DNA of 64,000 nucleotides from Eriocheir sinensis (taxonomy: Eukaryota > Arthropoda > Malacostraca > Decapoda > Varunidae). Positions 1-2,432 of this stretch are shown here, in pieces. Numbering within the stretch: position 1 is the stretch's first letter; the number at the start of each line of letters is the position of its first letter. Under the pieces are notes generated by a model that saw only the letters and a list, made by a program, of their open reading frames with translations, did not search any database and was not told where the DNA came from. Position numbers and translations under genes: made by a program. The stretch lies in contig NC_066522.1 of NCBI RefSeq assembly GCF_024679095.1, positions 6,371,290 through 6,435,289 of the forward strand. The letters run 5' to 3'.

Positions 1-2432
1 CCTTTTGGGTTCAACAGCATTCTCCTCTTCTTCACGTTCCCCTCGTTTCTTATTTCCTTTGAGGCTGTTTCATTTGCTTCTGTCTCTCCACCTCCTTCTG
101 TTGCCCTTTCCGCTTCTCCTACTATTCCTTGTCCCCTTGTTCCTCTTCTCTCTCTTCCCTTTTCTTGCTCTGCTCCTTCTCTCTCTCTTTCTCCGTATAC
201 TGTGTTGGTTAATGTTGTTGTTTCTCGTTTTGCTGTTGATGTTCCTTTTCCATCAACTCTATTTTGAAGAGGTGAGGCTTTTCTCTCACGGCGGTTCATT
301 GCTTCGTTTCTACACTTCGAAGCTCTGGTCACGTTTCGAGCCAGTGGAGCTTCATTTTCTAGAGGCATCAGTGGCTCTCTCGTGGTTGGCTTCAGAACTT
401 TGAGACTCCGGGTGTTCGGAGCTTCATTCCTCGTTTTCTTTGGCTTCAGAAGGGGTTTCATCTTATTGACTGATGGGCATTTAACATCATCAGGAGTCGA
501 GGTGTCGTTCGAAGCTTCGTTTTCCTTGTTCTGTGAATTCCGGATCGCTTCAAAGACCGCTGTGGCTCCTTCCAGAATGTAGTTCCTATACTTCGGGAGG
601 GAAGGATTCTTGGAGGAGAAGGACGGGATGGAGGAGGAGGAGGAAGGGGTGGAAGGTGGAGGGATGGAAGACGAGGGAGTGGAGGGTAACAGTTTCCTTG
701 TTTTGGTTAGGATGAAGGAGGAGGAGGAGGTGGTGGAGGATGTGGAGTGTTTGGTGGAATGGGTATATTTTGGTTTGCTAAAGGAGGATGACGAGGTGGA
801 GGAGGAGGCAGAGGTGGAGCAAGTAGTGATGGCGGTGGTAGTAGTGGTTGTGGTGGTGGTTTTGGAGAGGGAAGAGGAAGAAGAAGAGGAAAATAAAGAG
901 GTTTTGAGAGGAGAAGGGAGAGGCTTTATGTGGGAAGTGGGGGAGGAAAAAAAGGAGGAAGATAAGGGAGACGTTTTCTTGAAGGAGGAAGAAGAGGGAG
1001 AGGAGGAAAGAGGACTTTTAGAACAGGAGACATTGGGTCGTTTGGAGGAGGAGGAGGAGGAGGGGGAAGGCGAAATCTGATGAGCTGGACGAGAAGGAGG
1101 AGGAGGAGGAGGAGGAGGAGAGTAATAGGAAGAGGAGGAATATGGGCAGATTTTTCGAGTAGAGGAAGAAGGAAGTGGAGTAGGACGAGGAGTAGGAGTA
1201 GGTGGAGCAGGAGTGGAAGAGGGGGTATTGGTGGAGGGGGAGGGGGAGGTAATGGAAGGGGACATTTGATGAGCTTTGTAAGGGAGGGCGGAGGAGGGGG
1301 GAGGGGAGGCACTGGAGGGGGGGTGGAGGGGGGGAGGGAAGGAGGAGGTGGCTTGTGGAGTGGCAAATGGAGTGGAGGGTTGGGAGGAGTAGTCACTGTG
1401 GTAGGGAGTGGAGGTGGAGGGAGTGGTGGAGGAGGGAGGGGGGCGGGGAGTGTGGGAGGGAGTAGGGTTGTTGTTGGTGGTGGTGGTGATGGATGTGTTA
1501 GTCTGTGTAGGTGTGGAAACCGCCTGTGTGCGTGTGTGTGTATCTTGTGTGGGTATAGGTGGATGTGTCTGTTCAGTCTGTGTGGGTGTGTACGTTTCCC
1601 GTGTGCGTATGGGAGTGCGAGGACTGGTTTGTGTACGCGTCTGTTCAGCCCGTGTGCGTGTGTGCGTATCCCATGTGCGTGCGTGTGTACTTCCCTCGTT
1701 CTCCTCCCCATCGTCCCTGACCCCCCCGGAGGCAATGATAACCTCGAGGAAGTCCTGGGGAATGAGGGAAGCGTTGTGTGGGGAGGACTCCTGCTCCTCC
1801 CCCTCCCCCTCCCCCACCTTCCTCCCCTTCTTCCTCGGTGGGGAGGAGAGGAAGGTTTGCGTGGGTGGAGGAGGTAAAGGGTTGACTGCTGAGGAGGAGG
1901 AGGAAGAGGCGAAGGAAGAGGAGTAGTCACATATCTTTGGGTGAAGTGAATGTGGAGGAGGAGGAGGAGGAGGAAGATAACTGGATGAGAAGGAAGAGGT
2001 GGAGGTGGTGTTGGTGGATATGGGGTGTTGGTTGGGGGGGAGGAGGAGGGAAGGGTCATCTGGGAGGGAGGAGGAGGAGGAGTGGTGGAGGGAAGGAGGT
2101 GGAGGGCGAGGAAGAGGAGGAGGAAGGGAAGAAGGAAGAATCTTAGACTTATTAACTGAAAACGAAGGAGGCGGAGGAGGAGACAGGGGAGGAGGGGCAA
2201 GAGGTCGGGGGCGACTTATATGAGAAGAGGAAGATAAGGAATATGACGGGGAGGCGGATGAGGAGGAAGAGGAGCAAAATTCACGTATCTTAAGAAGTGC
2301 ATTGAGGGGGTCGTTTTCGGGGTCGTGGGTGAGGAAGAGGGTGACCACGTCCTGACACACCCTCATCTTCCCCTCGTCCTCCATCAGAGTCCACCTGGGA
2401 GGCTGCCGTCCCCGCCTGATGCTCTCGCAGAC
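1..2432 (-). CDS. MSH5: MSH5 exon 14, with very long C-terminal tail running off the window
   Basis: The acceptor CCCAACAG precedes 2432. The first 52 codons are homologous to the MSH5 C-terminus: [20 protein letters not shown] aligns with human [20 protein letters not shown]. Human ends about 15 residues later. Here I checked the same frame codon by codon to position 3 and found no stop, so 810 codons are open. The tail is Ser- and Pro-rich (about 2277-1800), then has an ordered-looking island near 1709-1770, a Thr/His/Arg stretch (1490-1690), more Ser/Thr/Pro (610-1490), and a Lys/Glu/Arg/Asn-rich end (1-600) with NEA repeated several times. Pyrimidine-rich DNA is naturally stop-poor, but 1-600 and 1490-1740 are mixed in composition and are also open. 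An intron inside the tail cannot be excluded. Confidence 0.78.

Follow-up and report, generated by a model that had tools for sequence, protein, structure and literature searches.

Very probably, the MSH5 protein of the Chinese mitten crab, Eriocheir sinensis, carries a coding tail predicted to run on, in phase and in the same exon, from the conserved end of the MutS core. The window, i.e., the whole stretch of 64,000 nucleotides that was analysed (contig NC_066522.1, here C14, positions 6,371,290 to 6,435,289), contains 758 codons of this tail. Altogether, we consider it likely that the region is the last exon of E. sinensis MSH5 and encodes a tail of ~917 residues, which is disordered by composition and whose role would resemble that of the tail of worm MSH-5.

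The MSH5 gene and its open last exon

The identification of the gene as MSH5, made in the initial annotation, is well supported by its MutS domains III and V (PF05192, 2.5e-18 and PF00488, 3.9e-40, in the joined core of a second copy with the insert left out), as well as by the similarity search, in which the strongest named matches were MSH5 models and bacterial MutS came far behind. Aligned along its entire length with the Penaeus japonicus 'mutS protein homolog 5-like', the same joined core shows 62% identity, and both Walker A (GPNASGKT) and Walker B (DEFG) are present. As expected of the MSH5 family, the crab protein would pair with MSH4 and act in meiotic crossing over. In the window, 12 upstream exons with AG/GT borders and conserved phase join the tail exon into 1638 stop-free codons. 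Note that exons were placed with a human MSH5 sequence, a placement with which the decapod proteins found afterwards concur, and that the joined models omit the exon at 30272-30361, which is present in both copies. The features are the following, all on the minus strand:

3..2276, minus strand: predicted coding tail of MSH5, 758 codons in the window (open frame, shuffles, no frame-breaking indel between copies)
3..32, minus strand: KKRML-type basic repeat, first of three (the other two in copy 2, past the window edge)
543..590, minus strand: possible helix motif, ILxxAxxVFxA, like one in Petrolisthes tails (5/5000 shuffles, picked by eye)
2277..2432, minus strand: C-terminal end of the MSH5 core, tail in the same exon (acceptor AG and phase, ALLKIREF)
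8380..8517, minus strand: MSH5 exon before the tail exon (AG/GT borders, phase)
9444..10223, minus strand: MSH5 exon with Walker B and PHVFVSTH, holding the insert (joined model)
9534..10106, minus strand: Glu/Arg-rich insert of 191 codons inside the ATPase domain (comparison of copies)
12154..12303, minus strand: MSH5 exon (AG/GT borders, phase)
13102..13339, minus strand: MSH5 exon with Walker A GPNASGKT (AG/GT borders, phase)
13912..14050, minus strand: MSH5 exon (AG/GT borders, phase)
15418..15735, minus strand: MSH5 exon (AG/GT borders, phase)
19439..19568, minus strand: MSH5 exon (AG/GT borders, phase)
26588..26659, minus strand: MSH5 exon (AG/GT borders, phase)
27739..27801, minus strand: MSH5 exon (AG/GT borders, phase)
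28316..28454, minus strand: MSH5 exon (AG/GT borders, phase)
29493..29663, minus strand: MSH5 exon (AG/GT borders, phase)
30272..30361, minus strand: MSH5 exon with approximate borders (only from the protein model P0009, 100% match to residues 473-502)
31497..31642, minus strand: MSH5 exon, the most 5' recovered in the window (AG/GT borders, phase)

The public model P0009 ('uncharacterized protein LOC126998310 [Eriocheir sinensis]'), whose MSH5 exons match C14, fuses the first half of MSH5 to a transposase-like stretch. It departs from MSH5 beyond residue 649 and closes with a PF13359 domain, so that for this farmed crab the public annotation of a core meiotic gene is broken. A transposase-like stretch matching the end of P0009 (PF13359) lies within an MSH5 intron at 24813-25577 (minus strand), and a stretch with reverse-transcriptase and endonuclease-like frames occupies 3049-5866 in the last MSH5 intron; this whole stretch is missing from copy 2. 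In addition, seven copies of a 95-base repeat (8812-9477) carry an MSH5 exon end and its donor, so that donor-like sites are repeated in the next intron.

The last exon starts at 2432 on the minus strand behind an AG acceptor and reads ALLKIREF, the conserved end of the MSH5 core, at 2300-2277. The initial annotation had counted 758 stop-free codons from this normal motif to the window edge, and the count is right; the whole frame, from 2603 to 3, holds 867 codons without a stop in the standard code. The three end-of-domain exons that belong to other MutS genes of the same genome sit in much shorter frames (104, 77 and 77 codons). The frame does run on to the edge as described, but its true end is visible only in copy 2, since a 5,000-N assembly gap directly left of base 1 makes the window copy unreadable past that point. 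A 2,593-codon frame extending past the edge was rejected as consisting mostly of N.

The tail frame is open beyond chance. Shuffling within 60- or 120-base blocks with di- or trinucleotides preserved (400 shuffles per setting, three settings) gave 16.0, 15.7 and 13.3 expected stops over 3-2270, and none of the 400 was stop-free in any setting. The same was found for the part 1-600 alone (~8 stops expected, 0/400 in each setting) and for the copy 2 tail (16.4-19.1 expected, 0/400 in each of three settings), while the part 600-2270 alone, with 7.5, 7.6 and 4.2 stops expected, was stop-free in 0, 0 and 1 of 400 shuffles, and the part beyond the window edge, read in copy 2, is weak when taken alone (3.2-4.0 expected, 5-10/400 stop-free). 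Pyrimidine runs were proposed earlier as a partial cause of the openness, and GGA/CCT-type triplets do make up much of the tail; shuffles of the local composition still expect 13-16 stops. The other two frames of the strand are interrupted by 16 and 24 stops between 2270 and 3, and by 13 each between 600 and 3, in agreement, as regards this strand, with the earlier statement that 1-600 is open in this frame only. Over 2270-3, the tail frame is also the least hydrophobic (0.14, vs 0.27 in each of the others) and has no run of four Leu, of which the other frames have 3 and 5; this ranking by hydrophobicity does not hold within 600-3 taken by itself. Exact CCT-type tracts read in the tail frame as Ser (7), Pro (4) and Leu (1). 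Pfam gave no match in the frame 3-2603, and PDB no meaningful match for the last core exon.

A second copy and the changes between copies

The last exon recurs once on C14, in inverted orientation and 460 kb off, with 96% identity over the 54 residues searched. In this copy 2, the exon begins at C14:6831101 and reaches a TGA at 6834008-6834010, giving a tail of 917 residues. The tail is indeed longer than the 750 residues claimed, and it also exceeds the 691 recovered core residues; its disordered nature is borne out as a disordered-type composition, 85% of the 917 letters being disorder-promoting. With an N-terminal part borrowed from P0009, the copy 2 protein would reach ~2,250 residues. As a conjecture, the three KKRML-type repeats may take part in nuclear import or in contacts with DNA.

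Collinearity between the two loci extends from a point ~36 kb beyond the left edge of the window up to window base 32046, with 88-98% identity in the individual blocks. The inverted collinear copy (C14:6798842-6868600 vs the window and its left flank) spans ~68 kb or more. A misplaced second haplotype and a recent inverted duplication would both fit these data. Near-identical MutS matches on contigs C9 and C52 hint at further retained haplotypes.

Between the copies, the tail differs by 34 substitutions in 2,259 aligned sites (1.51%), compared to 0.90% in the other exons and 2.07% in non-coding sequence. Four indels were found in the tail and two in the other exons, none of them frame-breaking, whereas 71 of the 109 non-coding indels (in 23,836 sites) are not multiples of three. 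The non-coding rate predicts 6.7 frame-breaking indels in the tail against none seen (P 0.0012), although each of the four tail indels is located in a run of triplets, where lengths divisible by three are favoured; for the strand-skewed part alone, 4.1 were expected and none was seen (P 0.017). Note that a sliding-window indel count misses indels outside the counted sites, and the totals were relied on. The core, with 9 synonymous and 8 nonsynonymous changes (dN/dS 0.30), and the insert, with 3.5 and 4.5 (dN/dS 0.28) and two indels that are both multiples of three, contrast with the tail, where 5 synonymous and 29 nonsynonymous changes give no sign of purifying selection on residues; the patterns of core and tail differ (Fisher P 0.007). 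A dN/dS below 1 in 1-600, proposed in the initial annotation as a test, was not obtained from the two copies, which show 0 synonymous and 8 nonsynonymous changes there and no residue constraint. The frame is kept and its residues drift; a disordered arm would be expected to evolve in this way, which is no proof of function.

These data bear on three other explanations. The window copy might be a 5'-truncated duplicate or pseudogene whose frame is a relic, copy 2 alone being functional. The break in collinearity near 32046 speaks for it, as do the N-terminal exons of P0009, which were found in copy 2 and not in the window. But the 13 joined window exons contain no stop or frameshift, the core dN/dS is 0.30, a misplaced second haplotype explains the break equally well, and the tail of copy 2 would stand regardless; we hold this explanation to be unlikely.

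Slightly less likely still, part of the pyrimidine-rich ~600-2270 could be a chance-open intron, leaving a shorter tail of ~360 residues (1-600 and the part beyond the edge). Indeed, the other introns of the gene are pyrimidine-rich too, no constraint on residues is seen in the stretch (5 synonymous, 21 nonsynonymous changes), and it stayed open in one of 400 shuffles when trinucleotides were kept. Acceptor-like sites are also plentiful, as one would expect in pyrimidine-rich sequence, 13 of 124 AG reaching at least the score of the gene's weakest acceptor. Against this reading, donors are poor: one of the 48 GT in the window tail, at 1817, reaches the gene's weakest donor, and the GT nearest the core (2284) scores 4.0 vs 6.3, on a matrix trained on the gene's true sites, which favours true sites. 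A splice from 2284 to either acceptor (590 or 608) would, by arithmetic on the coordinates, shift the frame. Moreover, ~600-2270 is free of frame-breaking indels, and other decapod models continue for 234-621 residues past the same core end. A small or alternative intron within the tail could still exist.

That the frame is open through strand-skewed low complexity only, the protein ending or being spliced away soon after 2277, is highly improbable: the abundant GGA/CCT-type triplets and the near-neutral rate of the tail residues would suit it, but no stop follows soon after 2277 where shuffles expect 13-16 in the tail, the less skewed 600-3 has 13 stops in each other frame, and frame-breaking indels are absent even from the skewed part. 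Our preferred reading remains a tail that is coding and in phase.

MSH5 extensions in decapods and other animals

In annotation models of eight decapod species besides the crab, among them shrimps, porcelain crabs and a crayfish, MSH5 continues beyond the core by 621 residues in Procambarus clarkii, 605 in Petrolisthes cinctipes, 601 in P. manimaculis, 523 in Palaemon carinicauda, 470 in Macrobrachium nipponense, 330 in Penaeus chinensis, 234 in P. japonicus and 116 in Halocaridina rubra (partial model). Six further decapod models (P0002, apparently of a crab, P0004, P0005, P0009, P0012 and P0015) stop before the core end and are uninformative. The informative decapod proteins (P0001, P0011, P0050-P0056) resemble that of the crab in a core 54-68% identical, an extension at the same place, a DEFGA after Walker B and an enlarged loop before the His motif; they differ in tail length, 116 (partial) to 621 residues compared to 917 in the crab, and in the distance from the DE of Walker B to the His motif, 46-165 compared to 222.

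Of 12 non-malacostracan MSH5 proteins compared, 11 continue for 9-58 residues beyond the aligned core. As an example, the proteins of Tachypleus, Nephila, Caerostris, Lineus, Nematostella (P0059), Exaiptasia and Dendronephthya, whose MutS cores are orthologous to that of the crab, read DEFGK and have only 9-22 residues after the core. In the nematode Auanema (P0066), 534 residues follow an alignment that ends at 663 of 691, an extension that bears on the uniqueness of the Caenorhabditis tail. The initial annotation started from the rule that MSH5 proteins known so far stop no more than about 15 residues past the motif; this rule fails for Caenorhabditis, as described in PMC9173770, and for eight other decapods. 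Carried to related crustaceans, the finding of a long C-terminus holds for these eight decapods and not for the amphipod Trinorchestia, which has 24 residues after the MSH5 core. A literature search, which was not exhaustive, found a decapod MSH5 tail nowhere and does not establish its absence from print.

The distal tail, searched alone with residues 660-1026 of the open frame in copy 2, gave no match at E <= 10 among 3924 candidates; Smith-Waterman comparison of masked tails between the crab and the eight decapods was not significant for any, and an earlier one with two species was equalled by 710 and 761 of 1000 shuffles. When only tail ends were compared, 30/5000 shuffles did as well for the crab and Penaeus japonicus. 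A short terminal motif of the other decapod tails probably recurs in the last 33 residues of the crab; the sequences near the tail end are SSPESVVVRRQYSFRH in the crab, SGRESVVVERKTSRKH in P. japonicus, CGRESVVIRRRSSRQH in P. chinensis and CSQDSLPLTRQYSLKP in Procambarus. Picked by eye, it scored above 5000/5000 shuffles. Profiles were then built from six other decapods, whose terminal 60, 70 or 90 residues were aligned by program with the crab left out; over the last 200 crab residues, a restriction chosen after the whole-tail test, they peak at 886-906, 885-907 and 881-903, with 0, 0 and 1 of 2000 shuffles as good. Tests across the entire, Ser-rich crab tail are noisy: the 60-residue profile peaks at 887-906 (7/2000 shuffles as good), the 70- and 90-residue profiles favour a Ser-rich stretch at 463-523 and not the terminal motif, and the reversed tail scores 19.3. 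Masking of low complexity, which takes out 83% of the tail, abolishes the match to the motif. In a leave-one-out test, Petrolisthes fails (97/500), Palaemon gives 4/500 and four species give 0/500; the matches in Palaemon and Macrobrachium are internal, not terminal.

Two other candidates were considered. A possible crab counterpart, at 1722..1769 (minus strand), of the VETV motif seen in other decapods was dropped, since 526/5000 shuffles scored as well, and the ILxxAxxVFxA motif, which drew no support from Smith-Waterman, is kept as a possibility.

ATPase-domain change and possible role of the tail

The same protein departs from other MSH5 in its ATPase domain. Walker B is followed by DEFGA in 9/9 decapod species, DEFGS in the amphipod and DEFGK in 12/12 others; after DEFG the crab reads AVT, at the position where K starts in all 12 non-malacostracan proteins. 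DE and the next His motif are separated by 46-222 residues in decapods, 270 in the amphipod and 29-30 in four others, the His-motif pattern not having been found in the remaining 8/12 non-malacostracan MSH5. In the crab, the Glu/Arg-rich insert of 191 codons (window 9534-10106, minus strand) sits in the loop that leads from Walker B to the His motif; at the same site, the inserts of other decapods are shorter and that of the amphipod is longer.

The closest known counterpart of the tail is found in worms. According to PMC9173770, C. elegans MSH-5 has an essential disordered C-terminal tail, the two largest truncations of which (339 and 414 residues) leave ~11 DAPI bodies in place of bivalents and abolish bright COSA-1 foci; the tail is described there as unique to Caenorhabditis orthologs, poorly conserved and endowed with 8-23 CDK motifs. 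Less constraint has likewise been reported for disordered parts of meiotic proteins (PMC12642689). On this published description, Caenorhabditis and decapod proteins share a long disordered-type extension after the MutS core that bears Ser/Thr-Pro pairs and is weakly conserved in sequence within each lineage. In contrast, the decapod tails belong to another phylum and probably have a terminal motif in common, while the worm tail is called Caenorhabditis-only; CDK dependence and a crossover function were shown for the worm tail and would be predictions for the decapod tails. Ser/Thr-Pro pairs exceed the number expected from composition in Procambarus (34 vs 14.7), P. chinensis (26 vs 9.4) and P. 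japonicus (12 vs 6.0); the crab tail has no excess (37 vs 40.2), nor do those of the other five species (the two Petrolisthes, Palaemon, Macrobrachium and Halocaridina).

By analogy with the worm, the tail may extend from the MSH4-MSH5 clamp as a flexible arm that can be phosphorylated at multiple sites and would gather crossover-promoting factors where recombination takes place. Its length, its composition and a handful of short motifs would then weigh more than the exact sequence. Such a role fits the absence of residue-level constraint in the tail. We propose this scaffold mechanism tentatively, with somewhat less than even confidence, and the new interaction or regulatory platform suggested in the initial annotation keeps the rank of an analogy with the worm. 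Since chelicerate, nemertean and cnidarian MSH5 have no tail, separate origins of the decapod and Caenorhabditis tails appear likely. A broader and more speculative hypothesis, which we rate a little below the mechanism itself, is that decapods independently evolved a phospho-regulated MSH5-tail scaffold for crossover designation, with the C-terminal motif as an anchor and together with a malacostracan ATPase change (DEFG[AS] and the expanded loop), the mitten crab having arrived at a tail that outgrows its recovered MSH5 core.

What stands out is the presence of MSH5 extensions across the decapods sampled, against the uniqueness to Caenorhabditis claimed in the published account. A second lineage would suggest that the gathering of crossover factors on MutS-gamma by a disordered arm evolved more than once.
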